From Liolophura sinensis (lineage: Eukaryota; Mollusca; Polyplacophora; Chitonida; Chitonidae): a stretch of 64,000 nucleotides of DNA. A program made the position numbers and the translations under genes. Below, one piece after another: positions 18,147-45,485 of the stretch (position 1 is its first letter; each line of letters opens with the position of its first letter). The DNA is taken from assembly GCF_032854445.1 (NCBI RefSeq), contig NC_088297.1:2089403-2153402 (forward strand), written 5' to 3'. Under the pieces are notes generated by a model. It was not told the origin of the DNA, ran no database searches, and saw nothing but the letters and a program-made list of their open reading frames with translations.

Positions 18147-18746
18147 ATTGCTCTGGAGAAGAGCCAGATCCAATATGGCTGAAGGGATTAAGCAAACAGA
18201 AGACCCCATCCAGACTAAACAGTCAGACTGACAGACGGACGCAAATTCATAGCCCAGGTGCCTACAGAAGCCCATCATTACACAGACCAGCTCACTCATC
18301 TTCAGATTCAGACATTCCCCAATCACAATCTCACTCTGTGCCCAGCAGAGAGCTGGCTGAGCGACTTTCACCTGATGTTGTTGTTGTTAAAGAGGAACCC
18401 GATGTTTATCCAGTTAGCTTGCACGCACATGAAAATCGCAAGCGTTCAGCCACGGACAGTGTATCTATTGACTTCAGAGATGGACCAAAACAGAGACGAA
18501 TGTCAACCACTGAATCGCCTTCCCATCAAAGTCTCATGTCAGTCATTGGTGGATTTGATAATGACACTATAAAGGATAGTGAAAACAGGGGAGGCAACTC
18601 TGATTTTCCCTCCACCAGTATTGCAGATAATGTGACATTGCCAGACTTGAGTGCTGATGTGTCAGTGGACGATTTGTCTTTTAACAAAACAGCTGCTGAT
18701 TTTGCTGATCAAACAGACTTCGGCCAAGACACCGTCAATACTAGCG
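18147..18746 (+). CDS. Gene M constant exon B, Ser-rich linker with VVVKEEP motif
   Basis: 600 bases, phase 1 at both ends (acceptor after a T-rich tract ending aaatatag, donor agcg|gtaggt). It encodes about 200 residues: DCSGEEPDPIWLKGLSKQK, YRSPSLHRPAHSSSDSDIP, SVPSRELAERLSPD, VVVKEEPDVYP, ENRKRSATDS, PKQRRMSTTES and SLMSVIGGF. An acidic, Asp/Ser-rich tail (VTLPDLSADVSVDDLSF) follows. The tail differs from L and R while the first 130 or so residues are almost the same. It lies 732 bases after exon A and 4.8 kb before the first variable exon. Expected to be a disordered nuclear linker; the SUMO and nuclear-import readings are motif inference only. Confidence 0.82.
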
Positions 18747-19134
18747 GTAGGTACTGACTATTTCCTAAAATCTGCTTGTCTGGTGTTCATAGAGGTTTAT
18801 CATGTCATTGTAAGTTTTCTCCTCCATAATGAAGAGGAGGCACATCTTGAAGCGGTTGATATAGGAATGATATTTAGCATAGATTTAGCCAGAATTTGAA
18901 ATCAGGCCATCTCATTACCAATTTTCTCTTATTTTTCCCTATCTCTCCCATGTTAATTTTGTCAGAATAGGACATCTCAAAAACACTGAGAGACATCCAC
19001 CCCACCCCTGGCTAAACCTACTCTTTGTGATGCCACTTGAGAGAAAAAGGCACACATGCGATCTTGATGCCTTTATCATATCAAATGTCACTTAGATAGT
19101 GGTTTATGTACAGATAGCACTAAAGTTTAGTCAC

Positions 19135-19165
<31 letters not shown>

Positions 19166-19444
19166 TAGGCTATGACTTTCTTGGTACAGTACAGAATCAT
19201 GTGCTGAAATTTTGGCAATACCACTTAGGATTTAAAATGGATGACCTCAGTGTCCGATAATAGCCTACATGTACATGTATATACATTCTATTCTGAGGTC
19301 ATACATTTTTGGTATTTAACTACAAACTGAAATTGTTTCAGGGATAAAAAAATAAAGAAAAGTAACCACCCAGGATTGATCCATGCAAGCATGGGTATTT
19401 GTCTCTTCATGCATCTACATGGAAGTGTTTGAGATAAGAGTGCA

Positions 19445-19680
19445 ATATATTTATTTATTTGAGTGGTGTTTTATGCTGTAGTCAAGAGTATTTCATTTTT
19501 ATAATGGTGGCCACCATTATGGTGGGATGAAATGGAATGCTGGGAGAGCTAACCACGTACATGCATGACCAGGTAGGATGCCAGGATGAGCTGGACTTGA
19601 ACTCACAGCGACCGCATTGGTGAGAAGCTCCTGAATCATTGTGCTGCACTAGCACTTTAAGAGCTTGGCCACAGAACCCT
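19445..19680 (+). repeat. Interspersed repeat, family 1
   Basis: Signature tgagtggtgttttatgctgt, gtcaagagtatttcattttt, gatgagctggacttgaactc and agcgaccgcattggtgagaa. It lies in the long intron of gene M. Confidence 0.65.
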
Positions 19681-20974
19681 CCCCTCCCCTCCGCTCCTTC
19701 CCTCCCCCTTTTCAAAAAAGTGTAAACCTCTATGAATCCCAACATGTGACAAGTGTACCTGTATATCTGTATATATTTCCCTCATCTTACTTCTCTTAAG
19801 GAACTATTCCAGGGTTTGCCCCAGTGGAAAAGTCCAGGTTTACCTGTTCGCACAATTTCCAATATGTCCATTATGTACACCTACATTGTATGCAAATAAT
19901 TCAGCATTTCTGTCCAACCAACAGGGATGTCCTGGCAAGAGTGTTAAGTGTCAATATGGTTAGCTCTGTCTTGCCTGTACCCTTCTCGACTCTTTTATAA
20001 GCATGTTAACACCGTAATGTCGAATCGACCTGATTGGTTAGTTTACCGACAGTCTGTTGTCATGGGAACTCACAATCTAGTTTCTGAAAACGCATGCATC
20101 TAGCCAGTAGGTGGAAGCAAATATAGGACAATCACGGACCGAACGCTGTCAAAACCTTTCAGTTTTACTGGGCTTTCCAGCGCATCTCTTTACATGCTTT
20201 TCTGAAGAAAATTTAATCCTGTGGCATTCTTTAGAAGCTTAAAAGATTTTTCAGGACTCGTAGTGTCATTTCATACATCGTCACTCTCACGATTACAGAC
20301 AGTGTGATAAATACAATTTTGGAACGAGACCGAAACTTGCCTCAATCACTAGAAAGCACTGTGTAGTAGGTTGCAACAGCGCATGGGGAAGTATCAGGTT
20401 TTGTTTAGGAAAGTGAGTGTTGATTATCGGAGATGGTATCCATAAAGCGATGACCTTGAATGTTGTTCATGTATGATAAACGCAGTTAATCACTGTGACA
20501 ACCTGTGTTCAACCATGCATCTCTATGATAAAGGACACACACTGAACGAGTGCAGTGTCAAAATCAGCAAGTGTACACAGACATACAAAATCAGCCATAT
20601 CTTCCTTGAAACAGAACCGGTGTGTAAGATCACAGCTAAAGTTTTTTTTCTACTTGTTTTTTTTTTTTTTTTTTTTTTTTTTTGATATATGTTGCGCATC
20701 ATTTAAACTTTTAGGAGCTTGTCCAGCCATTTACGTGTTTATGCTTGTACATCAAATACATATATGAGATTGTTACTGTGAATATTTATACCCGCCCGCC
20801 ATGAACAAGTACAGGATTGTGCGTGTATACAAGGTTCACTGTACTTGTACTCGTGCATGTATGTTTATCCATGTAGGCCTGGCCTTAGAGCTACATGTAC
20901 ACATAACTTGAGATATTGGGCTGCACCAGTGCAAGTATGTGTACATGTATGTGTGCCTTTGGTTTCCACAAGTA

Positions 20975-21845
20975 CAAGTTGTTGGATGAAATGAATCCCC
21001 AAAGTGATGAATACACAATCTGTCTGTGTCTTATGTAGATCTTCAGTCTTGTGACAAGTACACGGTGTAAGATGAAATGAGTCCCAAGATTGATGAATAC
21101 ACACACGTACTGTCTGTGTCTTATGTAGATCTTCAGTCTTGTGACAAGTACAAGGTGTAAGATGAAATGAGTTCCAAGATTGATGAATACACATACTGTA
21201 TGTGTCTTATGTAGATCTTCAGTCTTGTAACAAGTACAAGGTGTAGGATGAAATAAGTCCCCAAATTGATGAATACACATTCTGTCTGTGTCTTATGTAG
21301 ATCCTCAGTCTTGTGACAAGTACAAGGTGTAAGATGAAATGAATCCCCAAATTGATGAATACACATAATGTGTCTTATGTAGATCTTTAGTCTTGTGACA
21401 AGTACAAGGTGTAAGATGAAATGAGTCCCAAGATTGATGAATACACATACTGTCTGTGTCTTATGTAGATTTTCTGTCTTGTGACAGTTACAAGGTGTAA
21501 GATGAAATGAGTCCCAAGATTGATGAATACACATACTGTCTGTGTCTTATGTAGATCCTCAGTCTTGTGACAAGTACAAGGTGTAAGATGAAATGAATCC
21601 CCAAATTGATGAATACACATAATGTGTCTTATGTAGATCTTTAGTCTTGTGACAAGTACAAGGTGTAAGATGAAATGAGTCCCAAGATTGATGAATACAC
21701 ATACTGTCTGTGTCTTATGTAGATCCTCAGTCTTGTGAAAAGTACAAGGTGTAAGATGAAACGAGTCCCCACATTGATGAATACACATACTGTATGTGTC
21801 TTATGTAGCTCTTCAAGGTGTGAGGTGAAGTACAAGGTGTAGTCT
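20975..21845. repeat. 86-bp minisatellite, about 10 units
   Basis: Period 86 bases (the anchor gatgaataca recurs at 21436 and 21522). Each unit carries gtctgtgtcttatgtagatc, agtcttgtgacaagtacaag and gtgtaagatgaaatgag. It lies in the long intron of gene M. Confidence 0.9.
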
Positions 21846-22099
21846 GAAAATTTTCTCAAAGGTCTGAATGGAATGAATACATGTGCATTGTCTTGTCTTA
21901 TACTGATTCAAGTATATAATCTCAATTAAATCCTTAATTAAATGATTGCTGTGTATCTTTTAATACACATACAGTATGTACACCTCATTTTATATATAAT
22001 GGAAGATGTGTATAAGATGAAACATAAATGAGACAGTTTTCTGATCCAGTCATTGTAAATGGATATGGAATAGTTGTTTTTGTATTTTGCCATCTTGCT

Positions 22100-22800
22100 G
22101 TGGATGTACCTGTAGGATGGACATTTTGTGGACTGGCAATAATATATACGTGGATATGTAGGATGGATATTTTGAGGACCTGTTGTTGAATATACATTGA
22201 TATGTAGGATTGACATTTGTGGACTTGCTGTAGGTTATACATGGATATATGGGATGGACACTCTGTGGACTTGCTGTAGGATATACATGGATATGTGGGA
22301 TGGACATTTTGTGGACTGGCAATAATTTATACATGGATATGTAGGATGGACATTTTGATGACCTGCTGTTGAATATACATTGATATGTAGGATGGACATT
22401 TGTGGACTTGCTGTAGGATATACATGGATATATGGGATGGACACTCTGTGGACTTGCTGTAGGATATACATGGATATGTGGGATGGACACTCTGTGGACT
22501 TGCTGTAGGTTATACATGGATATATGGGATGGACACTCTGTGGACTTGCTGTAGGATATACATGGATATGTGGGATGGACATTTTGAGGACCTGCTGTTG
22601 AATATGCATTGATACGTAGGATGGACATTTGTGTACTTGCTGTAGGTTATACATGGATATATGGGATGGACACTCTGTGGACTTGCCATAGGATATACAT
22701 GGATATGTAGGATGGACATTTTGTGGACCTGTTGTCAAATATACAGTGTACAGCAATATGTAGGATGGACATTTTGTGGACTTGCAGTAGGATATATCTT
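22100..22800. repeat. 46-bp minisatellite, about 15 units
   Basis: Period 46 bases (ctgtaggata at 22411 and 22457). Unit elements are tacatggatatgtgggatgg, acactctgtggacttgct and a variant with acattttgaggacctgctgt. Variants recur in order, indicating higher-order duplication. It lies in the long intron of gene M. Confidence 0.9.
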
Positions 22801-23582
22801 ACATATCCAGTTTGGATATGTACATTTGCATTTGAAAAATGCCATTAGAATGGAAGGGCACTTTGAAATAAAATGCTGTGAAAGAATTTACCAAACAGGC
22901 CTATCCTGCAATATGTTCTTTTGAAATTCTGTATTCTGCTAGTATAAAATTGGAACATATCAGATGGCGTCCAACCAATTTGGACACGTAGTCAGCTAAG
23001 TAGACAGTACATGTGAATGTATATTCATGTATGTTTAGTTTAGTCTGTACTCCCTGTCCGCAGTGAGCACAGGGTTTGTGACATACATGTAGTTTATTAA
23101 GTATGTTCATGTCACCTCACCAATCTGCATAAATTCCCTTTGATTTGACACATAGTGGCAACCAAGCCACGCATTATGTTACCTTGGAATGGCAAATATG
23201 GTGTCTTGAATTAGTTCTCATGTCAATTCAGTGCAGGCAGGGTAGCCAGAAATTTAAAGGAGGTGTCCAAACCTCCCTTTTTGGGGCCATTTTGTTATAG
23301 CCACCAGTGTCCAGATTTCATTTTCTCAAATCTCTCCCATGTTATATATGCTGAGATCAGGGTGTCCCAATAGCACCAGTTGTCTGTTTCTCCCGCCCAC
23401 ATGGACGGATGCACAGGTAGCTAGCTAACCCTATGCTTCACTGTCATTTCTTCTCAATGAAAACGTGTGTGAAATTTCAGCCAGGCATGTTAGGTACATG
23501 TACGATAGGATCCTAAGGGTATACAGAAATCTTCGGATCAGCGAACATGTAGATTCACAGCAGGCTTTGTTTTTCTCTCCAG

Positions 23583-24082
23583 AATGTATGGAAGCATCCA
23601 CTAAGACAACCAGCACAAATTCTGACCAAGAGCAGAGGTGGTGTGGAAGGAGAGACAACTCTTGTGAGCCTCGTTACATGGGAAATGTGCAGAAGTTAGT
23701 ACGCTCAAATCGTATACCCAACAAAATAGGCATGTCTAAGGCTCGGCGAGGAAATATTACAAGCGCTGTGGGTCTCTTTGAGCGTTGGCTGTGGGAAACA
23801 CACACAGGGGAAAAGAGAGGAATGCATGAAATCCAACCAGAACAACTGGACAAGTACCTCTGTGATTTCTTTGAACAAGTCAGACTCTCGAATGGCTCCA
23901 ATTATTCTCTTAGTTCCTTCAAATCGTTGCGCTCCAACTTGGATTTTTACCTGAAGTGCACAAATTACCCTGCGTCGGTGACATCATCGGATGTCTTCAG
24001 ACAAAGTCAAGCAGCTTTCAGAAAGAAAATGAACAATATCAAAGCTCTGAGCGCTCAAAGTGTGACCTTTTGTGTTGAATAA
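23583..24082 (+). CDS. Gene M variable terminal exon 1, Crypton-type domain (subgroup A)
   Basis: 500 bases (3n+2). The acceptor tttgtttttctctccag fits exon B in phase 1 and the exon ends at a stop after VTFCVE. A linker of about 60 residues (STKTTSTNSDQEQRW) leads into the domain: RIPNKIGMSKARRGNITSAV, LFERWLWETHT, EIQPEQLDKYLCDFFEQV, NGSNYSLSSFKSLRSNLDF and YLKCTNYPASV, then SQAAFRKKMN. It is the SAM-like core-binding domain of Crypton/KIAA1958-like recombinases, without the catalytic domain. It is closest to the next exon, the two being a recent tandem duplicate. No start codon or promoter of its own is evident. The nearest AATAAA downstream is at 24939-24944, past a SINE. Confidence 0.82.
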
Positions 24083-24124
24083 TAGCCCAAATGACTCCTG
24101 TGTTCCTTCTTCACACTTCAACTG

Positions 24125-24475
24125 ATGGCTCAGTTGGTAGGGCATCCACTTTGGTGGCGTGAGATCCAGGGTCAATCCTGGGTCGGGTCGCACCTAAGAC
24201 CTTAAAAGAGGAAGCTGTACCCTCCTTGCTTGCCATTCTGCATTAAGGGGATTGTGCAACGACTGGTTGATCTGTATCAGTATATTGGCTCAGGTAGGGC
24301 GGCATCCTTGCCTTCTGTGTGTCATCTCAGTGAAGCGGCACTAGATAAAAGAGTAATTGAAATTAGCTTGCAACAAAGTAGCAGATTACATGCACTCTAA
24401 GGACTCCTTCATTGTCATATGAAAAATTGTCAAGTACGGGGTTAAACCCTAAGCACTCACTCACTCACTCACACC
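24125..24475 (+). repeat. tRNA-derived SINE, family 2
   Basis: Starts with a tRNA-like head (tggctcagttggtagggcat as A box, gggtcaatcc as B box). The body is cctaagaccttaaaagagga, ttggctcaggtagggcggca, and the end gttaaaccctaagcactcac followed by a (TCAC)n tail. Full relatives lie at 41.0 and 55.9 kb. It is inserted just 3' of variable exon 1. Confidence 0.75.
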
Positions 24476-24533
24476 TCAGCTACATGTAAATGTCACAGCA
24501 AGCCACAGGAGGTGGTGTGATGGGAGTTCAGAT

Positions 24534-24626
24534 TGATTCTAGGCATGCATAGAAATGGTGGGTCGATTCTAGGCATGCATAGAAAAGGTGGGTCGATTCT
24601 AGGCATGCATAGAAATGGTGGGTCGA
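24534..24626. repeat. 30-bp tandem repeat, 3 units
   Basis: Three nearly identical 30-base units containing gattctaggcatgcatagaa followed by atggtgggtc. Confidence 0.85.
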
Positions 24627-25915
24627 TCTGTGATAATAAGTTTTGAAAATTTAAGATCAAGTATGTAAGGGATCTGGGCTGTCAACACTATCGGGTCAGT
24701 GCAGCTGGACCACCCTAAATTACCTGCCTTGGGGTCAAAGGTGGTTTTAGGAGTAAGCTGAAAGTGGTTTCTGAAAAGCTGAAAAAAGTTTTGAAGATAT
24801 AGCACATATTTTAATTAAAAACCTACCTTAAAGATGGATTTTAAATTTGTACATGAATTTGAAATGTTTAGCTTAAATGCTACAGATAATAGTCTTCTGT
24901 TTTTCATATACCATTTAGACGAAGTTGGAAAGTCACCTAATAAAATTACATATACTGCATTGTACCTGCTGGGTCAAATATGTATATTCTGCCAAGGTTG
25001 AAAAACATACATATTTGAGTAAGGTGTAAAACACCAATCAAATAAGTACCGCTTTGATCTTAATGTACTGTTATGATTACTATCAATCATTGGTTTGGTA
25101 CTATTTGCTACACCAATGTGTCTATATTAAAGGAAACCGTTCTATGAAACATGGACAATTCATGGTCGGGGAGGTTATTTTTGGGTCTTTTCCAGGGTGT
25201 TGATGTTTTAATTTAATTGATGAAATGTGTTAACCTGAGGGTAGGTAGTTGGATGGTTGAAGATAATATGACTGACGCCCTACTGATGGAGCGTATTTAG
25301 GTGTGTCAACCGTGTTGTAAAAGTTGCTTGAAGATGACATGGTTGTGAATGAGCGAGATCTTGCTGATCTTGACAGAGGATATTCAGTATAAACTGTCAT
25401 GTAGAAGTTGTCAAAATGTTGGATTATTTTCACTGATGTCCTAACTCGGCTTGTGGATGTAGCATCAGCATACAGGTTTTCAAAGTTCAGAACACCGTGG
25501 GTTTAGGCTACAACAGTTGTGCTCATTCACAATTTTGCTCTGACCATTTTTTGGTCATGTTTGATTCAGAAAAAATGTTCACAATGGGTTCCAGAAACAA
25601 AGTTTCTGTTTGAGGTTTGGAAGTTCAAGGCATAAAAAGTACATCGGCAAGATTCTTTCAGAACATTTTCACATCCTATGTGTATATATCCATGTGTATT
25701 ACTGTAACCAGATGCACCTGTTCAGGGGTTTGAAGACTATTTTAGTTTTTTTCTGAGTGAAAACACTTGTTTGTTGCCTGAAAGATGTGTGATTTACCTG
25801 ACATTTAAGCCGCATATCTTTACTTTCGGAGAGTAAAGCTTGAGTGTTAAAAGGCTGAAAGCTTTGCCATGAGGTAAAACCTCTGATTTACCGCAGGCTT
25901 TGTTTTTCTCACCAG

Positions 25916-26457
25916 ACTATGTGGGAGCATCACCAAAGACAACCAGCCAAAATACTGACCATTATGATCAACGACAAAGATGGGATGGAAGGGCAGACGA
26001 CTCTCGTCACAAAGAAAGCACGTTGAAGTTAAAACGCTTAAGTCGTATACCAAACAAGCTAGTTATGTCTAAGGCACGGTTAAGAAATATTACCAGTGCT
26101 GTGGGTGTGTTTGAACATTGGCTGTGGGAAACGCACACAGAGGAGACGAGAGGAATACATGAAATCCAACCAGAACAGCTGGACACGTACCTGTGTGATT
26201 TCTTTGTACATGTCAGACTCCCGAATGGTTACAACTATTCTCTTAGTTCCTTCAAATCATTGCGCTCCAACCTGGATTTTTACCTGAAGTGCACAAATTA
26301 CCCTGCGTCGGTGACAACATCGGATGTCTTCAGACAAAGTCAAGCAGCTTTCAGAACGAAATACAATGAACTCAAGGCTCAAAGTGCTCAAAATATTGCT
26401 GTGAATGATGACACTTCTGACAGGACAAATGCAGTCCCGCAGATGGTATCAAAATAA
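25916..26457 (+). CDS. Gene M variable terminal exon 2, Crypton-type domain (subgroup A)
   Basis: 542 bases (3n+2), acceptor gctttgtttttctcaccag, phase 1, stop TAA at 26455-26457. The domain reads RIPNKLVMSKARLRNITSAV, GVFEHWLWETHT, EIQPEQLDTYLCDFFVHV, PNGYNYSLSSFKSLRSNLDF and YLKCTNYPASVTTSDVF. It is nearly the same as exon 1 from mid-domain on, but its linker and C-terminal tail (NDDTSDRTNAVPQMVSK) differ. The usual FERWLW is FEHWLW. AATAAA at 26453-26458 overlaps the stop codon; a second at 26552-26557 is the likelier poly(A) signal. The intron end (ccgcaggctttgtttttctc) is shared with exon 1. Confidence 0.82.
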
Positions 26458-26551
26458 AGTTTAATACCGGATCAGCGATTGTGAATATTTATCAGATGTC
26501 GTAGAAAATGTCGTGTGTGTGTGTTTTTTTTTTCAAGACAGAATCTTGTGA

Positions 26552-26557
26552 AATAAA
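26552..26557 (+). terminator. Candidate poly(A) signal, gene M variable exon 2
   Basis: Canonical AATAAA about 95 bases past the stop of the 25.9-kb exon. Supports that exon being a true last exon. Confidence 0.5.
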
Positions 26558-26814
26558 ATACCATTTTCAGTCATACTTTACAATACATTTTGCATTACGG
26601 ATGTAGTTGTACATTTAGTTCCCGTGTTGTACTTGCACTTCACGGTACTCCCTGATTTGAGGTATTTCTACCTGAAAACTTACCCGGAAAGAATTTATGC
26701 CAACACTGTCTAACCAATAAATTGCTGGAAATCATATTGTCAAGCACAAGTGTATTGTTCTTGTATTGTACAATTAAATTGAACAATGTATGCATTATTG
26801 GAGTCAATTTACCC

Positions 26815-26947
26815 CTCAGTAAATTGACAAGAGGCGGGCGGTCGTAATTCACTGGTTACATGTGACCATTTGCCAATTATGACTCTGTCGTTGCTGCTCT
26901 GGTTTTATTCACTCTGCTGTAAATGTTTTATTCTAGTCTATATTTCA
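26815..26947 (+). repeat. Shared non-coding element 1, copy a
   Basis: About 130 bases with phrases taaattgacaagaggc, gtgaccatttgccaattatg, gtcgttgctgctctggtttt and tctatatttcag. Related copies lie at about 31280-31421, 35565-35668 and 62164-62320. Three copies follow a variable exon by roughly 360-580 bases. Confidence 0.65.
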
Positions 26948-26984
26948 GTTTTGTTCCTCCTTGTACACGTTGTATTTGCAAGGC

Positions 26985-27165
26985 GATGTTTTTATCCAAG
27001 CTCCTCCAACTGTCTTCATTCTGGCTTCCTCTCCGGTCTTATGTGAGAATGTGTGGCAGCAACCCGAGCGTCTGTTGCCCGATTTCTTCCCACCATAATG
27101 CTGACCACCTTCGTATAAGTGAAATATACTTGAGTACAGCGTAACACACCAATCACATGTAATAA
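26985..27165 (-). repeat. Interspersed repeat, family 1, minus orientation
   Basis: Contains tcttcccaccataatgctga, cgtataagtgaaatatactt, gagtacagcgtaacacacca and an aataaataaa tail. Confidence 0.65.
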
Positions 27166-27269
27166 ATAAATCCAAGTTGCTTTCTTGTATACGCCCGATT
27201 CTCATCATGTCTATGGCATATAGGTTTAAGTTCAGCATTTATCATTTAGCATCTGAAATCATATTACAG

Positions 27270-27365
27270 TATTTCCTCCCACCATAATGCCGGCCGCCGT
27301 CGTATAAACGAAATATTCCTGAGTACGGCGTAAAACACCAATCAAATAAATCAGTAAATAAATAA
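27270..27365 (-). repeat. Interspersed repeat, family 1 (3' part), minus orientation
   Basis: Contains ctcccaccataatgccggcc, gccgtcgtataaacgaaata, gagtacggcgtaaaacacca and an (AATA)n tail. Confidence 0.65.
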
Positions 27366-27604
27366 ATAAATTATATTACATGTATTGTGATACCAAACGT
27401 CAAGAATATTCTACCATCTGATCAAATGTCGGCATGATGGTTTCACAGTAATTCACTCTTTAGACATCTGAAGGCCACATATGAAGTCATTGTGTGTGAT
27501 CAACAGGTACGTGATCTTGTTGTAGGTCTGGGTTTGGGTGTTATGCGAGCATTCTGTTATGCCAGCCACACAATCGTTCCCTACATCAAATAACATGGAT
27601 GTAC

Positions 27605-27760: not shown

Positions 27761-27764
27761 CGTA

Positions 27765-28741: not shown

Positions 28742-29220
28742 AGACTTCAGGAGTAATGGTTCAGGCTGAGAGGTTGAGAACATCCGGCTCCTACACTAGA
28801 GCCAAGGAGGAAGACGAACAACTCCGGCGGGAACGCATGAGTCGAATACCAAACAGGGAGAACATGTCCAAATCACGATTGGCAAACATCACCAGTACTG
28901 TGGCCCTGTTCGAGAGATGGCTATGGGTCTCACACGAACAAGAGAAGCGAGGCATTCACGACATATATCCTGAGGAACTTGACGGGTACCTGACAGAGTT
29001 TTTCTCCACCATTAAACAACCAAACGGCAATAATTACTCTCCAGGTTCTCTTTCGTCATTGCGAGGTTATTTGGAGTTCTACTTGCGGTGTACAAACTAC
29101 CCAGCATCTATCACCGGCAACTCTGGAGTGTTTCAACAGAGTCAGGCAGCATTTAGACGGAAAATCAATGAAATAAGACAGGAAATGGCTACCTCGACGT
29201 TGCCTGCTGAGCACACTTGA
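28742..29220 (+). CDS. Gene M variable terminal exon 3, Crypton-type domain (subgroup B)
   Basis: 479 bases (3n+2), acceptor gtttctttttgtcaccag, phase 1, 159 residues to the stop after PAEHT. FERWLW sits at about residues 57-62, preceded by a basic helix-like stretch (RRERMSRIPNRENMSKSR). Then come IYPEELDGYLTEFF (75-88), KQPNGNNYSPGSLSSLRGYL (92-111), YLRCTNYPASIT and a final QSQAAFRRKINEIRQEM helix. It is closest to exons 4 and 5. A CTGAC likely branch point lies about 24 bases before the acceptor, in a block shared with exons 4-6. No catalytic domain follows. The product would act as a DNA-binding C terminus joined to exons A and B. Confidence 0.83.
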
Positions 29221-30449: not shown

Positions 30450-30907
30450 AGATTTCGTCAGATGGAATGGCTCCAGAAGAGATGCCGAGGACGAGCAACT
30501 TCTATAGTAGAACAAAGCAAAAGGCCGATCGCCTCAAGAACGAACGAATGAATCGAATACCGAACAGGGAGAACATGTCTAAATCGCGAGTTGCAAACAT
30601 CACCAGTACTGTGGCTTTATTTGAGCGTTGGCTGTGGGACACCCACGAAACCGAATCGCGGGGCATACATGATATCCCACCGGGCGAGCTTGACGTATAT
30701 CTAGCCGAATTTTTCGGCACCATCAAACAGCCGAACGGAAACAATTATTCGCCGGGTTCGTTGAAGTCTTTAAGAGGCTACTTGGATTTCTACTTGCGAT
30801 GTACAAACTACCCAGTCTCCATCACAAGTATCTCGGGGATATTTTGGAAAAGCCAAGAGGCCTACAAACGTAAAATCAATGAAATTAGAAAGGAAATGGC
30901 TTCCTAG
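30450..30907 (+). CDS. Gene M variable terminal exon 4, Crypton-type domain (subgroup B)
   Basis: 458 bases (3n+2), acceptor ggtttctttctctcaccag, phase 1, stop after KEMAS. The linker is short (SDGMAPEEMPRTSNFYSRTK). The domain follows: RIPNRENMSKSRVANITSTV, ALFERWLWDTHETESRGIHD, IPPGELDVYLAEFFGTI, KQPNGNNYSPGSLKSLRGYL, DFYLRCTNYPVSITSISGIF and a KRKINEIRKEM end helix. An AATAAA at 31050-31055, about 145 bases past the stop, is a plausible poly(A) signal. An ATG upstream at 30299 is open in frame through the acceptor, but that segment includes an AT-rich AAAAAAAAATAAAATAAAA stretch and is intron-like. Confidence 0.83.
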
Positions 30908-31501: not shown

Positions 31502-31502
31502 A

Positions 31503-31529: not shown

Positions 31530-31533
<4 letters not shown>

Positions 31534-31900: not shown

Positions 31901-32355
31901 AAATTTGGTCAGGAAATATGGCTCAGGCCGAGAGAGGGAAAGCAGGGTCCTACACAAGAGCCAAGAAGGAGGCTGAACGGCTGAAGAACGAGCGTATGAG
32001 CCGAATACGGAACAGAGAGACGATGTCCAAATCAAGAGTGGCAAACATCACGAGTACTGTGGCTTTGTTCGAGAGGTGGCTCTGGGACTTCCACGATCAA
32101 GAAAAGCGAGGCATGCATGATATTCCACCCGAGGAACTCGACGTGTACCTGGAGGAATTTTTCTCGACCATCAAACAACCCAACGGCAAGAACTATTCGG
32201 CTGGTTCTCTCAGGTCGTTACGGGGTTATCTGGATTTCTATCTGCGGTGCACTGACTACCCGCTGTCTATCACAACCGGTTCTGGTGCGTTTTCGCGAAG
32301 CTATGAGGCATACAGACGCAAAGTAATGGAAATAAGGATGGACATGGCAACATAG
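31901..32355 (+). CDS. Gene M variable terminal exon 5, Crypton-type domain (subgroup B)
   Basis: 455 bases (3n+2), acceptor agcttctttttgtcaccag, phase 1, stop after MDMAT. After an opening of about 35 residues rich in Ala, Lys and Glu (SYTRAKKEAERLKNERM) come RIRNRETMSKSRVANITSTV, ALFERWLWDFHDQEKRGMHD, IPPEELDVYLEEFFSTI, KQPNGKNYSAGSLRSLRGYL, DFYLRCTDYPLSIT and RRKVMEIRMDM. It shares with exon 4 an upstream intron block containing agcgttct and tctgacg. It lies only about 1 kb after exon 4, a recent tandem duplicate. The nearest poly(A)-like hexamer is ATTAAA at 32611-32616. Confidence 0.83.
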
Positions 32356-34501: not shown

Positions 34502-34992
34502 ACCTCGAGCGTGTCAGAACAGAATCATTCACAACTGGACTCAGTTTTGGCCTTAGGATGGATGTTAACGCAGCTGTGAGGGACAATCACTCAAGGATGA
34601 AAAGTAAGCGACTGAGAGCTGAGCGTCTAAAGCGTATTCCAAATCGTGAGGAGATGTCCAAATCTCGACTGGTGAACATAACCAGTACAGTTGGCCTGTT
34701 CGAAGGTTGGCTGTGGTCAAGGCATGAACAAGAACAACGGGGAATTCATGAAATCGCCCCACAAGAGCTTGATTTGTATCTGGCTGAATTTTTCTCTACT
34801 ATCAGGCTACCCAACGGCAGTAATTATTCTCCGGGATCTTTGAAATCGTTGCGATCATATCTGGATTTCTACTTAAAATGCACAGGCTATCCAGTATCAA
34901 TCACGTGTGCAACCTCAAATACTTTTCGCGAAAGCCATCTCGCTTACAGACAGAAATTGAGAGAAATCAAGATTGAAATGAGTTTGACTTAG
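34502..34992 (+). CDS. Gene M variable terminal exon 6, Crypton-type domain (subgroup B, FEGWLW variant)
   Basis: 491 bases (3n+2), acceptor ggtttctttttctcaccag, phase 1, stop after EMSLT. The linker is longer than in exons 4 and 5, about 45 residues. The domain follows: RIPNREEMSKSRLVNITSTV, GLFEGWLWSRHEQEQRGIHE, IAPQELDLYLAEFFSTI, RLPNGSNYSPGSLKSLRSYL, DFYLKCTGYPVSIT, and an end helix YRQKLREIKIEM. The conserved Arg of FERWLW is Gly here. If that Arg contacts DNA or packs the fold, this variant should behave differently. Element-1 copy c lies about 570 bases downstream; AATAAA is at 35870-35875. Confidence 0.82.
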
Positions 34993-35668: not shown

Positions 35669-36630
35669 TGTGAGTCTCTCAGTAGCTTACCAGAAACGGG
35701 AAAGTGGCTGAAAGTTGAACAAAGATAGTGCGAAACTCTCACGTTTAGAGATGTTGATTCGCATGAACACAGCGTCTGTCATATGTTCAGCGGATATTGA
35801 CACTGAAGCCGTATACGATAAGTATGACACCTAGATGTAGAGTCAACTTCCACCTTTTTCCAACTGTAAAATAAAAATATACCGAATTTACAGTGTGCAA
35901 GTGCAATGTTATTTTTTTTTTTTTCATTAGCTTGGCGCATGTACCCGCAGTCGTGGAGAATGACTACTGTAATATTTGTATTTGTAACATTCTCTATTAT
36001 TTGCCATGACGAAGATGTAGCAAGAGCTAAAAAAATGGTCTTTTGGGTTATTTTCAGTTCTGGTACTGTAATGCATTACATCGTCCTAATATCGCTCCCA
36101 GTGTATGGTTTTTAATTCCACACCGATCGTCAGTTATTTGTGCTGTGTTAAAGTGTTATCCAGGGTCCATTTCCCAACGTGTACATGTATAGGTGAGTTC
36201 TGAAGAGAGAAGCTAATGCAATGAAATACAAACGATCACGAAAACAGCTGGTGTTCAGAAACACTTTAAATTTATACAATATACTGCCAATGAATAAAGC
36301 GCGAATAATTTATTGTCTTTTAATGTGGGCGTAAATCTGCATTTAGCATGACAAGCGTATTATATTTTGATCCCAGTTGTCCGTTTTTACAGTAACGTTT
36401 CAACAGGTAAAAATAAAGTACCAGTCGCATTAGGCAAGTTACCAAAGAATGAAATAATACTGCAGCCTCTGCTGTCAAAACAAAATGAAAAGGTAAAGTA
36501 TTGGAAAAAACCCAGCATGCATAGACATGTATGCACGTGTATGTCTTTCGATTTTCTCAACTCCCTTCACTGTCAACTTCTCAGTTTCCAGGTGTATTAT
36601 TCGGAACCCAAAATAATGTTGAATATTTTC

Positions 36631-36695
36631 AATAAATGTGTGGTGCGGTAAGCTTACCCAGTACTCCCCCTTTTGGAAAAGTGGGGAGTACCGCA
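36631..36695 (+). other. AATAAA followed by a hairpin
   Basis: AATAAA at 36631-36636 is followed by a perfect 9-base stem (gtactcccc at 36661-36669, ggggagtac at 36683-36691). An overlapping alternative pairing uses tgcggta (36644-36650) and taccgca (36689-36695). It may be chance or a 3'-end structure; it lies about 1.6 kb past exon 6. Confidence 0.35.
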
Positions 36696-37500
36696 CTTCC
36701 TCTGAAAATTATCTGTAGTACTGCTTGACCCCTTGGATTACTGCCCAATAGCTGATCTTCCTAATTGCGTGAATGCCAACAAACTTATTACACAAAGTTT
36801 TTCATGGTCTGTTGAAGAAGCTATCAGTTAAATTGTGGAATGAGCTGTTAATTACGTTTGCTACAGGTATATGTGATGAACATTTGGATATAATCTTGAA
36901 AGACCGGAAAAATAGTTGACAGATTGTACATACTGTCGAGATACAACTATACAATGTAAGGACCAAAACATGTATCACGGTATGTTTTCTTGGTCTGTTG
37001 CCACACGCCGTAACGTTACAAATAAGGAAGATGCTCATGCACTGACCGAAAAAATAGAAATTGTAACGATTTCGTTGCAAATAAATTTCGGGAAAATGTC
37101 TACAATCTTACAGTATATTATAGTATGACGTTCTGGTGCAGTGCATTCTCTTTAAGGCCATGTCATAATGAGGTGGGGCTGGGTCCTCCATTACACACAG
37201 AATTGCTGATAGGCTCTTGAATGAATTGTACTAGTTGACAATTGGTCATTAGATACGATAAAAATAGAAGAAGAGCAATAGACCCATTTCAAAGCCCTTG
37301 GGCTCTAGTATAGAACATAGTGTGATTCAAATGTTGTTTATCGCTCACGGATGAATGTCGTTAACTTAACCTCCATCCATTGCACCATTGTTCGATCAAA
37401 ATATTAATTCTGAAGGTGTTTGGATGAGTTTCATCTTACATCGTTGCTTGTGGATGATTCTCTTTGCCAGACTGACCAGGGTTCGCTTTCTCTTTGCCAG

Positions 37501-38000
37501 CTGTTATGACAAGGGACGGAAGTCGGGACAACTCGCGTATTGCTGCTGTGCAACGCGATGAAATCCTCGGCTCGAAGCTCCCTGACCACCGTTCGCCAAA
37601 TTCTTACAGATGGCAGATGATCAGGCGCCAAAAGCTCGGAGATATCTCGTCCATCCCACGCCAGTCTGTCATCAGCATGGTGGGAGCAGTGGGGTGTTTT
37701 GAACGGTGGTTATGGACCGGTGATCACAGCCTGGGCAAGGATATGCGGAGCATGACGGACATCCCGCCAGAGCAACTGGATGTCTACCTGGCCGAGTTTT
37801 TCACCAAGGTCAAACGGCCGAACGGAGCCGAGTACAACTTTAACTCGTTCGTGACTTTCCGGACCTACCTGAGTAGATATCTCCGGCAATGTAACTACCC
37901 GGAGTCTATCTCCAGCTCCCCGAGGTTTGCGAAGAGTCAGCTGGCGTTCATGAAAAAGAAGGACTATTTGCAAAAACTGCAGACTGAGACGACGATGTAG
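37501..38000 (+). CDS. Gene M variable terminal exon 7, Crypton-type domain (subgroup C)
   Basis: 500 bases (3n+2), acceptor gctttctctttgccag, phase 1, stop TAG after TETTM. The linker (TRDGSRDNSRIAAVQRDEI) is unlike subgroups A and B. The domain reads IPRQSVISMVGAVGCFERWL, DIPPEQLDVYLAEFFTKV, KRPNGAEYNFNSFVTFRTYL, SRYLRQCNYPESISSSPRF, AKSQLAFMKKKDYL. A few residues are inserted after FERWLW (TGDHSLGKDMRS). A duplicate acceptor, tctctttgccag, sits 30 bases upstream (ending 37470). Using it would read GAC then TGA, an immediate stop. Codons here are more GC-rich than in exons 1-6. Confidence 0.82.
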
Positions 38001-39980
38001 TGTAGTTGAAAACGCTTCAGAATAATGCCTCGGTCTTGGAGATTAGTCTGTATCATCTAAAATAGGATGTGTTCAGTACCTATTTCCACGTTCATGTTCG
38101 GCTCCAACAAACACGGTATTATTTGATGTGATAATGATCAGGTGATATCACTTTGCAACATGCCAAGCACCTTTGTCATCTTACTATCACCGGTATAGAT
38201 ACCGTTTTATAGTACGTTACGCTTAGATTTACATGCCCTTGGTTGCTTTTTTGTGCTTGTTGCTGCCGTAGACGTGTACAAATCTCAAAATAGCATCCCT
38301 GATGGTGGTAATTTTCATCATAGTTGGTGGTTCATTTGTATTTAACGGACTGAGCAGGTTGCTTCCTAACGTTTCTGTCTTTGTCGTTCCGCAATGTTCA
38401 TACATCGAGGAGTATTCATCGAGGAGTATTGTACTGTTCAACAAGTTCAACGTCCACATAGCTATACATGCATAGATACTATTTCTTCTTGCATGGCGTC
38501 ATTGAATGGACACGAATGTTATATCATAGCGTTACTCACTAAAACCTAAACTTTACGAGATCTCTCTTCATTTAATATATTAATTAGTCAAATGACCTGT
38601 AGAGGAAAGGAAGTCGACAAGGTACGTGGGATTTACAAATAGATATCCAGTTGCTAGGTTAGTTTTGTTCGTCATTGTGAGTTTCTCAATTCTCAGTCAA
38701 ATCAATCAGTATTTCTGAATATCATGTCTCTTTACGACGTTCTGTTACGTTGTTTTGCTCATTTTTCTACTTGATATTTGCACAGGTAAAGGTGCATCCT
38801 GTTGAGTGTTTCTGTTTGTACAGACTGAACTTCCTAAAGTTCCGGTTTACTGATGGACAGTGCAGAAGCCCCGGTCTCGACACAATGTTGAATAGAACGG
38901 AAAATGGCCCTGAAACCAAATGTTCTTGTAGCACCGTAGGATTGCGCTGCTTCGCCAAGGTGGCGACGTTATCGGAAAATAATTTCGCAAGTCGCAAATT
39001 ATGTTCGCAATATGCGCAAAATGACGATTGGTAGCGCTAGTACAGCATTCAAGCTTACTACGGTGCATTGCTCGCCCAGTCGAAATTTTCCTTAGATATT
39101 TAGGGATATGAAATCTATCGACCTATCTATACTTATAGTCTTGATTGAATTTGCGTGACATTTTGTAGGCATACCAAAAAATACCAAAAGCGCATGTGCT
39201 ATTTAGCGCCGCATCAATTATGTCCGGAGTGTTTACACTTTGAATATGGAATAGGGGCATGCAGATAGTGGGTGAATCTCCTACAACTATGGTTATGATT
39301 GGATTTCCATAGAGATGTGTAAGGATTGCAGAAATCATGTGAGCATGTGCCATTTGAACTGCGCCACGTCAGTTATTTCTAGAGTGATTACTCTTTGAAC
39401 ATCAAATTGGAACTTGTTGATAGTGAATGGTTGTTCGAGTCTCTCAATACTGATGTAGTATGTCCAGTGCCTGGTCTCCACTCCACTGGTTTATAAATGC
39501 AAAACGTGCGTGTCGAACTCTGTTACCATTCCCCATCCTAATTTGATACATAGCACATGTGTATACTGAATGTATACAAATGTATACTGAATGTAGTATA
39601 ATACCAGTCCTTTAAATAAATGTTGCCCTGTGTTAAGCTGACAGCGTGTATTGCGTGCAGGACATAACGTCATTAATGAACGGAACTGTTGAGTGTGGCC
39701 CGGAAGACTAAGCGTCTTGCGACGGATCTTGTTTAAGTGAAGTGAGGATTGTGTGAAGTACTGGAGTGTAATCTGTCTAGCTAAAGAAAGGTCCTAGGAC
39801 AGACTTGACGTAGTTTAATTCAACTAAGTGACATTTCAGCATAGTTATGGCTGCTTTTAGATCTGATTGCATGTATATAAATGATGCACTTCACGCGTCA
39901 AGAGAATCTGATTCCTCTGCCCTTCCACGAAGGCCCTGAACACATAAAGGTTACTCCCGTCCTCCTGGCTGTTTCGTTCT
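38001..39980. other. Inter-exon intron, gene M, 5' part
   Basis: No gene seen. Open frames of 60-94 codons (for example 38750-39034) carry no recognisable domain. A (TATACTGAATG)-type short duplication lies near 39560-39595. Confidence 0.4.
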
Positions 39981-39989
39981 AGTATGGAG

Positions 39990-41830
39990 GCTATCTCCTT
40001 TCCCTTGACGACTTCTTACTCGTGCGTTTGTTTGTTCTGCCTGGTCTCCTCTACACATCAACGTTGCATTCGTCTTGACGAACTCTTCCACATATAGGCT
40101 GTCTCTGTCTTATTAATAGGCTTGTATACACATATAAGGGTAGCCGTAACCTTCGCCATCTTGGTGGTCTCTTCTACACCAAAATGTTATCTCCTTTCTC
40201 ATGACGATCTCAAAGAAGCGATCTCAAACTTAGATGCGACCTTCTTCGTGCATGGCGTCTTGACGTCTTGAAGATGCCCTTCACACAAGATATAACTCCA
40301 TCTTCTCAGTGCTAGAGATCATGCTCGTTGTCTAGGTCGTTCTCTCCACATATAAAAGCTACCTCCGTCATTTTATTACCCCTGCCACATATGAACGTAC
40401 AGATCACCTTCCGCATGGCCGTTCTCTCCACATATAGAAGCTACCTCCTTCTTTTTATTACCCCTGCCACATATGAACGTACAGATCACCTTCCTCATGG
40501 CGTTCTCTCCACATATAAAAGCTACCTCCTTCTTTTTATTACCCCTCCGCATGCGCACGTACATATCATCGTCCTCTTCGCCCTTCTCTCCACATATAAA
40601 AGCGACCTCCATCTTTTTATTACCCCTCTCACATATGCACGTACAGCTCACCTTCCTCTTGGCCGTTTTGTCCGTATATGAAAGCTACTTCCGTCTTTTT
40701 ATTACCCCTCCCACATGTGCACGTACAGATGACCTTCCTCTTGGCCGCTCTCTCCACATATAAAAGCTACCTCGATCTTTGTACGGCCTCTCCCACATGT
40801 ACACGTACAGTTCACCTTCCTCTTGGCCGTTCTCTGCACATATAAAAGCTACTGCCGTCTTTGTTTGACTCCTCCCACATATTCATGTGCAGATCATCTC
40901 CTTTCTCCTGACTCTTTTCTCCGCATATAAACGCTACCTCCCACAAGTATAGATCATCTCCATTCTCGTGGCAGTTCTGACCACATATAGAATCAACCTC
41001 CGTATTTTTTACGTTCTCTTCCACACATACAGACCTGCGCCGATAGCACAGTTGGTAGAGTGTCCCCTTCGGGAGCAGTAGATCCAGGGTCAATCCTGGG
41101 TCGAGTCATACCTAAGACCTTAAAAGAGGAATTTGTATCTTCCTCGCTTGGCGTTCAGCATGAAGTGGATAGTGCAACGGCTGGTATTATGGCTTGGGCG
41201 GGGCGAATTACTTGCCTTCGGCAAGGCGTCTCAGTGAAAAGAACTAGATAAAAGAGCGGTGGAAATCCGTCCTGCAACAAGGAGGTACATACCAATACAT
41301 GCACCTTAAGGGTTCATTTGTGGTCATATGAGTGAAAAATTGTTAAGTACGACGTTAAACCCCAAGCACTCACTCACTCACTCATTCACTCCACACATAC
41401 AGATTATCTCGTATCTCTTGACCGTTCATTTCACATATACAGGCTACTTCTCTGTTTTTATGACCCCTCCCACATGTTCTTGTAAGTTTACAGTTCATCT
41501 CATTTCTGTTGACAGTTCTCTCCGTCTTTAGGGAGACCTCTATCACACTTATTGATTATCTTCCTTCTGGTGGCACTACTCTTCACATATAAAGGCTATC
41601 TCCGTCTTTAGGGAGACCTCTATCACACTTATTGATTGTCTTCCTTCTGGTGGCACTACTCTTCACATATAAAGGCTACCTCCGTCTTTTTGACGACCCC
41701 TGTCATACGTAGAGGTTACCGTTTTTGGCAGTTCTCTCTTCATACAAAGGCCATCCCCGTCTTTTTGGCGCTCCTCCCCAACACGCAGATTTTGGCTTGT
41801 CTCTTGCCCGTTTCCTCCAGACATCCCTCC
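39990..41830. repeat. Tandem array, about 81-bp unit, interrupted by a SINE
   Basis: The best units are at about 40335-41019: ctctccacatataaaagcta, cctccttctttttattaccc and a tacagatcaccttcctc segment, repeating at about 81-83 bases, at least eight times. Diverged units lie on both sides (39990-40335, 41390-41830). The right side includes a 76-base duplication around 41520-41670 (gggagacctctatcacactt). Open frames here on both strands (40328-40763, 40376-40651) are repeat artefacts. Confidence 0.85.
41034..41389 (+). repeat. tRNA-derived SINE, family 2, full-length candidate
   Basis: The 5' head has a tRNA A-box-like stretch (gatagcacagttggtagagt) and B-box-like gggtcaatcc. The body has cctaagaccttaaaagagga and aagagcggtggaaatccgtc. 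The 3' end is acgttaaaccccaagcactc plus (TCAC)n. A 14-base direct repeat, tccacacatacaga, flanks it (41020-41033 and 41390-41403), as expected for a target-site duplication, although the host tandem array contains similar words. Confidence 0.75.
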
Positions 41831-42111
41831 CTTGTGTAAGTTCGGAGCTCTTGAGTACAGCGTACGATACCAGTTGCGCTGAAATACACGTACATCGTTC
41901 CTTAGATTATGATGTAAGACACCATAATGACAGTGGAGGTGACGACTGCTACTGGTGATGGGAGAGTAGAGGGTAGTGTTAAATACTTGGTTCATAAATA
42001 TATATCAGAGGACTTCCCATTTTGTGCAGGCCTTTTCACCAGTTGCCATATGTGAAAACATAATCAGATGAGAAGTGCGTGGACTAAAATGTTTCATGTG
42101 ACCTTGATTAG

Positions 42112-42290
42112 GTAAAATCCAACATTTCCGCTGTGGCGGAGGAGGGGAAGAATTTGTAAAATCCTACATTTCCGCTGTGGTGGAGGAGGGGAAGAATTTG
42201 TAAAATCCTACATTTCCGCTGTGGTGGAGGAGGGGAAGAATTTGTAAAATCCTACATTTCCGCTGTGGTGGAGGAGGGGAAGAATTTGTA
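42112..42290. repeat. 44-bp tandem repeat, 4 units
   Basis: Four near-perfect 44-base units: gtaaaatcctacatttccgc and tgtggtggaggaggggaaga plus attt. It ends about 240 bases before variable exon 8. Confidence 0.92.
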
Positions 42291-42527
42291 GTGTTAGAGT
42301 AACGCTTTCCAAAGTGTAACAGACATTCAACTGTATACAAAATGCGAAAAGATACTACTATATATTAACACGTTGAGGTGGTGTTCTCGCATGTCCATGA
42401 CGAGTTTCATGTTATAAATGTTCACAAGTCTTGTAGTATAAATTTCGTTGTTTTCATCATCATCATAAAAAAGAGTGGTGTTTTCTGGCCTGCTCAAGAA
42501 TTTCGTCTGTGTTGTTGTTGTTGGTAG

Positions 42528-43021
42528 GGACTATGGTGGAAGGATCTTCTCTTGGTGGCGACGGGTTTATCACTCCATCCAGTGAACTAATGCTTATATC
42601 TGCCGACTCCGATCGTCCTTTGGGGGTGCGAGGATCCACGGAGGCGAACGTCGCCCGGAGGATGCGGATAGCCCATCCGGAACGGCTTCCTAAGCGAACT
42701 GTGATCAACATGGTGGCTGGAGTAGGGGCCTTCGAGCGCTGGCTGTGGGAGACCTCGGTTACGGACCGGCGTAGCATCGTAGACATTCCCCCTCGTGAAC
42801 TGGACGCTTACCTCTCCGACTTCTTCTCCACCGTGAAAACTCCGTCAGGACAGAATTACAAACTGGAATCTTTCCAGGCGCTGAAAGTCAGTATTTTTCG
42901 GTACCTCAAAGAAGCGAACTATCCTGAATGCCCGAAGACCTCCTCCATATTCGTAGGGTGCTACAGCGCTTATAGGCACAGGAGGAACCTGCTTCGAGAG
43001 GAAACGCTCCCTCCTAAGTAG
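42528..43021 (+). CDS. Gene M variable terminal exon 8, Crypton-type domain (subgroup D)
   Basis: 494 bases (3n+2), phase 1, stop after LPPK. The acceptor is unusual, a GTT repeat ending ttgttggtag, with a weak pyrimidine tract. The domain: RIAHPERLPKRTVINMVAGV, GAFERWLWETSVTDRRSIVD, IPPRELDAYLSDFFSTV, KTPSGQNYKLESFQALKVSI, FRYLKEANYPECPKTSSIF, YRHRRNLLREE. The KLESFQALK and NYPECPK signatures group it with exons at 60.4 and 62.9 kb in gene R, not with its neighbours in M. It is GC-rich relative to exons 1-6. Either the array was shuffled between genes or this subgroup predates the M/R split. Confidence 0.8.
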
Positions 43022-44991
43022 GCGGTCATCACGATCAATTGCGTGTAGGCATATTTTAGGTTTGTATACGCTGGAAAGAACTTTGTGTGATGTATTTCAT
43101 TCACAAATTCAAGTGCATGAAGATGTTTGATCCAGCTATTTGTATTCCGATGTTCAAAGCCATTATTTTGTAACAGAGAAACGCCCCTAATAGTGCAGAA
43201 GGTACAGTCCAGTGAGGGGTGCTTGTATCCGGGCCCTTTACATGAGGGTGCGTTTCGCAATTCATTTGAAAAGAAGTTAAAAAACCATTGCTTTTTCTTA
43301 AAGAACTTTTTGCGTTCGTCACTATGTTGTAAAGTCATCTCAAGATCGTACTACAATGTGATTTGTTCTAGAAAAACTAGAATTAGTGATTACAGATCTG
43401 AATTTGACCTAATGTAAAGTCATATTTGCGAGATAATTTGCTCCAACTTCACATATTATTTTGTTCCCACTTACGCCGCTAAAGCCTCCCCTTCACTGCA
43501 GATACAACATTGACTGGAGATGTCGCATGCTCGACACCATCTCCCACAGATTCTGCCGCGCATTTAATCCATGATGGGAAGGAGGTCGTAGTGTAGTGAT
43601 TAAAGGCGCTTGCTTTCAAGCACTAGGGCTCACGAGGTGCAGGTTTCAACCTAGAGAATTTTTGTTGACCAACAATCATTGTTAGTGGCGCCTTCGTGAC
43701 GATAAAGCGTCGATGATGATGATGTGGATTAGATGAGGTTTCCATGCATCTGTTATTTATATAATTATTACGCGTTTACTATATGGCTGGGATTTAAGGC
43801 GATGAATTCCTTGTTTTGTTTGATGAATGCCACTGCTTTTATTTTTGTCGTCATCCCTTTTTCTTAATACTTGACTGATGCGTTGGGAACAATATGTTTA
43901 TGGGCATGAGCTCTGTTAGATCCCTTCCGGGAATTATTTCTAATGTCATCGCTGTTTGAAGATGTTTGAATTTGGGCTTCAATGAAATGAGACCTTGTTA
44001 GTGCAACTCCACCTGTCAAGTTCGTCCTGCTAAACAGGGGTGGATGGAAATTTTCACACACACAGCCCTCACCCCCCCCCCTCCCCACCACCCACCCCCC
44101 GACCCCCCCATCTTCCGAAAAACCACATCATTCGCACTTGGCTCTCAGCAATGCATACTTTCCCTTTCTTTGGCCCAGAAATACCAGAAGGACCCCTTGC
44201 TTTTCAATATAAATTAACACAAGTGGTCCTGTATGTGGTGGGCCTGCTATATCTGATATGGCGTGCATATCGGGTGTTATGCCCCTGATTGTATCCCCAG
44301 AAACTCCAAAACATGGACTTGTACACGTGACTGGTTTCGGAGGATGGGCCGGATTTTGGCAAGCGCCATCAATCTATAGCCTTTATGTCAGGATACCGCA
44401 CTTGTTACCAAAACAACCGAACTAAATTCAGTGAACACGTTAACCCATTTGTGGGGTACATCACAACTGAGCAGGTATTCAGCAGAGCGACTAACCTTTT
44501 GCCTACTTTTTCAATTCTTGGTGCATAGATGACTTGTTTATTGTTTCAGCTATGGTATATTTTGATCCAAATTTCTGGGCCAGGTTAATCTTCTTGTGTA
44601 TAGTAAACTAATAGCTTCGGTCGGTTGTTTCTTGGTAAGATGTACATGATAGAAGAACAGCTGATGTACTCAAGCTTGAGGCAAAATGTGGATTCTGTGA
44701 CAATTTTAGCTAATAGTCAAATGTTTTCTTGTGGAGCAGCTAAGAGTTTGTTTCATTTGTTGGATTGGAGTTGTACGCTTTTTTTCGATAATTTGCAGAT
44801 ATTGTGACTCACTGTCACCACAACGAACTGCCATTTATGCAGACGCTGTAGTAATAATAAATTGTGTTTAGTTATCCATGACACGTGAAACAGAAAAACC
44901 TTAACTATTAAACTGCTGTGTATTTGAATAATTATGATTGTATCAATCACTTTCAGCACTGAGAATGAAATATTTGTCACTCTATTTCCAG
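43022..44991. other. Inter-exon intron, gene M
   Basis: No gene seen. It holds a tRNA-like SINE head (43585-43735) and a C-rich low-complexity stretch (44066-44110). Other open frames (43127-43417, 44040-44288) look random. Confidence 0.4.
43585..43735 (+). repeat. tRNA-like SINE fragment, family 3
   Basis: Contains gtagtgtagtgattaaaggc and gcttgctttcaagcactagg, with a B-box-like ggtttcaacct, then a (GAT)n run. It looks like a tRNA-derived SINE head; no second copy is clear in the window. Confidence 0.45.
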
Positions 44992-45485
44992 ATGTACACG
45001 TACGGGAAAGTCAACACATGCAGATGTTGACGCCATCTGGTGGCAATCACACGACTTCAGTAGGTGACGTCCCCTGGCCGGAAAATGTATCGTTGGTGAA
45101 TATTGCCTCGATGACGCCTCGCGAGTTGAACCGTATTCGTCGTGGAAAGATTAAGGACATCGAAAGCATCCCCAAGCCCAGCGTGAGTAACATGGTGGTA
45201 TCTGTGAGCATCTTCGAGCGATGGCTGTGGGAGAGACAAACCTGTCATGACAGACGATTCATCAACGACATCCCACCGGCGATGCTGGCACCGTACATGG
45301 TTGATTTCTTCCGATCTATCACGACGCCGTCAGGCTCTAACTACAAGAGTGAGTCCTTCCTGAGCCTGCGCTGTAGCCTTTTTAAATTCCTCCGGGTCAC
45401 CGGATATCCTGTTAGCCCAAACACCTCTCCGGAGTTTACCGAAGCCAGAGCGGCCTTCGCCGAGAGAAGGCGCACACTTCTGTAA
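44992..45485 (+). CDS. Gene M variable terminal exon 9, Crypton-type domain (subgroup E)
   Basis: 494 bases (3n+2), acceptor tcactctatttccag, phase 1, stop TAA after RRRTLL. The linker is about 65 residues (MLTPSGGNHTTSVGDV). The domain: IPKPSVSNMVVSVSIFERWL, INDIPPAMLAPYMVDFF, TTPSGSNYKSESFLSLRCSL, FKFLRVTGYPVSPNTSPEF, ARAAFAERRRTLL. The usual ELDxYL is MLAPYM, so the helix is conserved in pattern but the acidic pair is lost. It is the last variable exon found before gene R, 6.1 kb upstream of R exon A. No close AATAAA; the first good one is at 46944-46949. Confidence 0.8.

Follow-up and report, generated by a model that had tools for sequence, protein, structure and literature searches.

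The lola and mod(mdg4) genes of Drosophila join a constant N-terminal part to alternative DNA-binding C termini, with at least 20 isoforms for lola and more than 30 for mod(mdg4) according to the available portion of PMC4528330. Tyrosine-recombinase-derived domains are known from host genes of Crypton origin (DUF3504), among which the accessible text of PMC3212892 names KCTD1, KIAA1958, QRICH1, ZMYM2/3/4 and WOC; KIAA1958 has two isoforms, each with a recombinase-derived domain. Here we describe genes of the chiton Liolophura sinensis in which a constant pair of exons, A and B, is most probably joined, from the donor of exon B, to one of many last exons in the manner of lola and mod(mdg4), each unit being a single gene. 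The window, that is the whole 64-kb stretch of DNA that was analysed, corresponds to C3:2089403-2153402 of the 609 Mb genome and holds three A+B units with 13 domain exons. A genome of this species first appeared under the name L. japonica (correction, PMC12441733), and RNA reads from five tissues (SAMN35319765-69) are reported in the main text of PMC11068029 as far as available.

Units of constant and last exons in the window

Unit 1, on the plus strand, is RefSeq LOC135463739, whose isoforms start in exon A at 17270-17414. Its exons are as follows.

17270..17414, plus strand: constant exon A, with start codon, 48 amino acids, donor G|GTGAGT, phase 1; aligned with the two other copies in the window
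18147..18746, plus strand: constant exon B, about 200 amino acids of low complexity with VVVKEEP, RKR and QSLMS-type motifs
23583..24082, plus strand: last exon 1, entered by RefSeq isoform X8, which leaves near 23698; full length not seen among the RefSeq matches listed
25916..26457, plus strand: last exon 2, joined protein identical to RefSeq X1
28742..29220, plus strand: last exon 3, joined protein identical to RefSeq X6; read-derived counterpart P0002, 82%
30450..30907, plus strand: last exon 4, not seen among the RefSeq isoforms listed; read-derived counterpart P0001, 91%
31901..32355, plus strand: last exon 5, joined protein identical to RefSeq X7; counterpart P0003, 84%
34502..34992, plus strand: last exon 6, joined protein identical to RefSeq X5; counterpart P0004, 83%
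37501..38000, plus strand: last exon 7, open when joined to A+B; not seen among the RefSeq isoforms listed
42528..43021, plus strand: last exon 8, acceptor ...TTGTTGGTAG, joined protein identical to RefSeq X4; best-scoring AG in another phase
44992..45485, plus strand: last exon 9, joined protein identical to RefSeq X3

Joined proteins were obtained by translating exons A and B of the window together with one domain exon, and were compared letter by letter with the RefSeq isoforms. The RefSeq relatives were the best 120 of 126 matches of a protein search; all named proteins among the matches listed are from L. sinensis, and the lists were filled by that species. RefSeq isoforms of such kind are usually backed by transcript data. 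Six of the nine joined proteins of unit 1 are letter-identical to isoforms X1 and X3-X7, and over the whole window identity was found for 9 of 13 (six in LOC135463739, three in LOC135463662). No identical protein occurs among the matches listed for the full-length exon at 23583, for the exons at 30450 and 37501, or for the minus-strand exon at 2148, and isoform X2 of LOC135463739 is absent among the matches listed (120 of 126). Isoform X8 (P0019) uses acceptor 23583, exits the exon at about 23698, continues in the exon at 25916 in another frame and ends soon after; it is possibly a splicing by-product. The original prediction for this stretch expected junctions from 18746 to all nine acceptors: six are present in the identical RefSeq models and that at 23583 is used by X8, whereas those at 30450 and 37501 are not among the matches listed. 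Its comparison with the layout of lola and mod(mdg4) is borne out by the RefSeq models, which join one constant part to different last exons.

The description of the nine exons themselves was accurate, in that each follows an AG at the predicted base, is 3n+2 in length and carries its own stop and one domain. Exon B is constant as proposed, but the constant part consists of two exons, the start-bearing exon A preceding B. Exon A ends in phase 1, the start and end of exon B preserve the frame, and an uninterrupted frame results in 13/13 cases when a domain exon of the window is joined to A+B (the nine and four further exons). A tblastn search over the 64 kb found A three times and B three times, with no copy of either within 18746-45485, in agreement with the claim that the domain exons have no constant exon of their own. 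The further claim that they have no upstream start was too strong as sequence evidence, and eight of the nine have an in-frame ATG among the first 19 codons that follow the acceptor.

Neither exon A nor exon B matches a Pfam family at E values up to 1. When 91 of the 115 named proteins are aligned, exon A hardly varies, and exon B shows three conspicuous and nearly invariant features: a VKxE site, an RKR stretch and a QSLMS-type motif; because the 24 proteins omitted include domain-less ones and several with other N termini, this conservation is valid for the selected rows. The structure model has two helices in exon A at moderate confidence, a disordered exon B and a well-folded end domain. 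Exon A is a predicted short helical hairpin and exon B a predicted disordered linker, in which VKxE is a putative SUMO-type site beside basic stretches and the QSLMS-type motif.

Acceptor phase was assessed on the 52 domain open reading frames (ORFs) of two regions fetched from the genome, of which 4 under 60 bits were dropped and 48 kept. The best-scoring AG lies in the expected phase in 45 of the 48 (3 of them ties), where about one third would be expected by chance; at some exons, for example that at 62900, it differs from the RefSeq acceptor and is in the same phase. TCTGAC with a pyrimidine tract stands just 5' of the acceptor at four of the nine exons of unit 1, with variants at other exons, and is a candidate branch point. 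Poly(A) hexamers occur in the 1.5 kb that follow 12 of the 13 exons; they were dropped as evidence because such a frequency is expected by chance, the plus strand carrying 1.5 hexamers per kb.

The proposed nine-member array is present in full, but it is not the only one in the window, where unit 2 and a minus-strand unit (unit m) contribute the exons below.

51643..51787, plus strand: unit 2 constant exon A, RefSeq LOC135463662
52186..52872, plus strand: unit 2 constant exon B, RefSeq-mapped
58322..58821, plus strand: unit 2 last exon, joined protein identical to LOC135463662 X3
60391..60914, plus strand: unit 2 last exon, joined protein identical to LOC135463662 X2
62900..63441, plus strand: unit 2 last exon, joined protein identical to LOC135463662 X1; more exons follow beyond the window
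13929..14073, minus strand: unit m constant exon A, RefSeq LOC135464147
12087..12683, minus strand: unit m constant exon B, RefSeq-mapped
8806..8976 (start approximate), minus strand: unit m short last exon, LOC135464147 X2 (P0018), mapped by exact translation
1679..2148, minus strand: unit m domain last exon, not seen among the RefSeq isoforms listed

The end at 8806-8976 is a short basic coding stretch with a stop, unlike the recombinase-type ends, and P0018 has no Pfam match up to E 0.05. Two domain exons of unit 2, at C3:2176011-2176526 and C3:2235006-2235521, lie 59 kb apart and have the same 20 bases before the best-scoring AG; they are perhaps a recent copy. In unit 1, the intron ahead of the first domain exon contains long minus-strand open frames of repeated short peptides at 20865-22798, which are repeats, and the segment 40001-42000 has a GC skew of -0.238, an AT skew of -0.158 and repetitive open frames.

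Nature of the variable ends

A recombinase-type domain is present in 111 of the 121 retrieved proteins and absent from 10. Other ends comprise C2H2 zinc fingers in P0117 and Tc5/CENP-B helix-turn-helix domains in P0110, while P0112 and P0119 have C2H2 accessions in their database records, P0111 and P0120 have BEN matches below cut-off, and P0118 and P0121 have no Pfam match. Both kinds can occur in one gene: LOC135463852 has isoforms X1 and X4 of the recombinase kind and isoform X3 of the CENP-B kind. The structure comparison (VIA-align) places the end domain in the helical core-binding fold of tyrosine recombinases, which upholds the predicted recombinase origin of the module.

The narrower assignment to Cryptons is likely, on the strength of sub-cut-off QRICH1 matches and of one longer member read by eye. 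QRICH1 (PF25561) is matched by 11 of the 13 window exons at E up to 1 and by two not at all, every match being below the Pfam cut-off; the best reaches 24 bits (E 4.3e-5) against a cut-off of 30.8, and P0116 and P0050 score 27.2 and 27.9 bits. Because these scores are below the cut-off, the module is not filed as a Crypton-derived (DUF3504/QRICH1) member. A sequence search of the Protein Data Bank (PDB) gave no match for exon 30450 (E up to 1) or for P0116 (E up to 10). The end of P0116 (L048 and L049; C3:19665387-19666873, minus strand) consists of two exons and lies furthest 5' among the ends found in the large unit described below; inspected by eye, it has a longer recombinase-like region that reaches beyond the core-binding half, and it may resemble the ancestral form.

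The domain ends are basic (pI 8.8-9.9) and probably bind DNA. Kojima and Jurka, in the accessible part of PMC3212892, give protein-protein contact as one of two possible roles of domesticated recombinase domains, and variation among the chiton domains shows no clustering in the helices taken as equivalent to the groove-binding ones. It is therefore imaginable, though rather improbable, that the layout is as described and the module serves protein contact instead of DNA binding; the basic character of the ends speaks against this, as does the occurrence of known DNA-binding domains (C2H2, Tc5/CENP-B) among the other ends on the same kind of front.

Genome-wide extent and joining of the exons

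Genome searches found 45 matches to exon A and at least 180 domain loci. The latter number is a lower bound from two domain searches, with 150 scored of 274 and of 262 first-look candidates, merged with the loci of the fetched regions, and some of the matches contain a stop. The domain loci form 35 units, the smallest with 1 locus and the largest with 26, and 10 copies of exon A have no listed domain locus. All 180 lie downstream of an exon A on the same strand, within 94 kb and with no found exon A on either strand between; in 2000 strand shuffles the number so placed averaged 126.5 and reached a maximum of 144. A minus-strand unit near 19.6 Mb of C3, in an 80-kb region, has one A, one B and 27 domain ORFs, which make 26 loci because one is split in two, and 16 RefSeq isoforms map to it. 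Among the 117 proteins P0005-P0121 (115 of them NCBI-named), 30 can be placed on the two fetched regions with 97% or more of their length, and after exon B these have a single piece in 28 cases and two pieces in P0019 and P0116. On C1 there are two divergent copies of exon A (L050 and L051, 55 and 57% identical) with no listed domain locus, which are possible outgroup genes; a protein search scored on a divergent exon A alone gave no match among 4 candidates, a negative that carries no weight, since even known family members were not recovered.

The reading that we favour with good confidence is that each unit is one gene. A single promoter would drive A+B, the sole donor of exon B would pair with the acceptor of one last exon, and cleavage after the chosen exon would end the transcript. 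The last exon would supply its own stop and, usually in the cases found, a variant of the core-binding domain that lacks the catalytic half. In this way one promoter could yield many proteins with a common front and different, probably DNA-binding, ends; the proteins would have common partners, by way of A and B, and different targets. We infer a choice in cis, with each transcript spliced and cleaved at a single terminal exon. Exon A may oligomerise or recruit a shared partner, the different domains may bind different DNA sites, and the proteins would presumably be transcription or chromatin regulators.

Some isoforms of mod(mdg4) and lola, the genes closest in layout, are made by trans-splicing (available portion of PMC4528330), and separately transcribed A+B and domain precursors could be joined in part by this route, as are many mod(mdg4) isoforms. 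The position of all 180 domain loci in cis, on the same strand and with no found exon A between, means that the maps can be explained without trans-splicing, for which we see little probability here. It is also very doubtful that we are looking at a tandem family in which every domain exon closes a small gene of its own, equipped with a promoter and a non-coding first exon. The early in-frame ATG in eight of nine exons would suit such genes, as would the two of nine acceptors not seen joined to A+B among the RefSeq proteins listed. They are outweighed in our judgement by the scarcity of constant exons (three A and three B in 64 kb, one of each beside 26 domain loci in 80 kb), by the phase common to exon B and 13/13 window exons, and by the annotation of six of the nine exons as isoforms of one gene.

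The exons are under purifying selection. Among the 78 pairs of the 13 window exons, nonsynonymous divergence (pN) is below synonymous divergence (pS) in 78 pairs for the domain core and in 73 for the linker, although in most of the pairs shown synonymous change is at or close to saturation. Four read-derived proteins best match the exons at 28742, 30450, 31901 and 34502 (82, 91, 84 and 83%); three of the four have a longest contig of 5583 bases, a shared length that would fit the array order. That most exons are decaying duplicates with few in use is the least credible account, suggested by loci split over two frames (C3:2158882-2159393, beyond the window, and 19655675-19656363, in the second region), by stops in some genome matches and by the by-product-like isoform P0019, and opposed by the core pN < pS in every pair, the open frames of 13/13 window exons and the counterparts that four of the nine exons in unit 1 have in another sequence set.

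On the one-gene reading of each unit, a set of at least 180 DNA-binding ends, exchangeable on a common kind of front and with the last exon chosen by cell or tissue, might amount to a combinatorial code; we hold this idea tentatively and regard it as more doubtful than not. Were it so, the code could conceivably serve cell identity, or the recognition of foreign or mobile DNA, a suggestion that is just as speculative. Dscam and the clustered protocadherins offer the comparison for the scale of such a combinatorial repertoire, which here would consist of DNA-binding proteins.

Comparison with known systems

Among the matches listed in the literature searched, largely without subscription journals and judged by titles and the openings of abstracts, there is no description of the chiton gene set, and none of four gene identifiers tried appears in that literature; the words 'crypton' and 'isoform' do not occur in the main text of the L. 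sinensis genome paper (PMC11068029). The chiton genes appear to form an extensive and so far undescribed collection of alternative regulatory proteins. It would extend the design of a constant front with variable DNA-binding ends beyond a few Drosophila genes, in a larger version that is built from different parts and uses a recombinase-derived domain. It would also offer a concrete system for asking how one splice donor picks its partner from a long row of terminal exons, and how the targets of a recombinase core-binding domain become diverse.

The Crypton-derived host genes resemble the chiton genes in carrying a tyrosine-recombinase-derived domain. They retain a longer region (274-347 aligned residues in Table 4 of PMC3212892, as accessible), with six such genes in the human genome, whereas the chiton module is the N-terminal half only, multiplied as alternative last exons, P0116 being the longer exception noticed. 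The plant ALOG domain proteins differ in having an inserted zinc ribbon, and no alternative last exons are described for them in the part of the source available.

The chiton genes are like lola and mod(mdg4) in having one start-bearing constant part and many last exons of the same phase, each with its own stop. In the Drosophila genes a BTB/POZ domain forms the constant part and zinc fingers form the variable ends, whereas in the chiton the front is an exon A outside any Pfam family and the ends are mostly of the recombinase type; because no Pfam family was found for exon A or B, the chiton genes are not filed as lola-family BTB genes. They differ also in scale: a single genome holds 45 copies of exon A and no fewer than 180 domain loci. 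The layout is thus known from lola and mod(mdg4), and it is the parts and the scale that differ.

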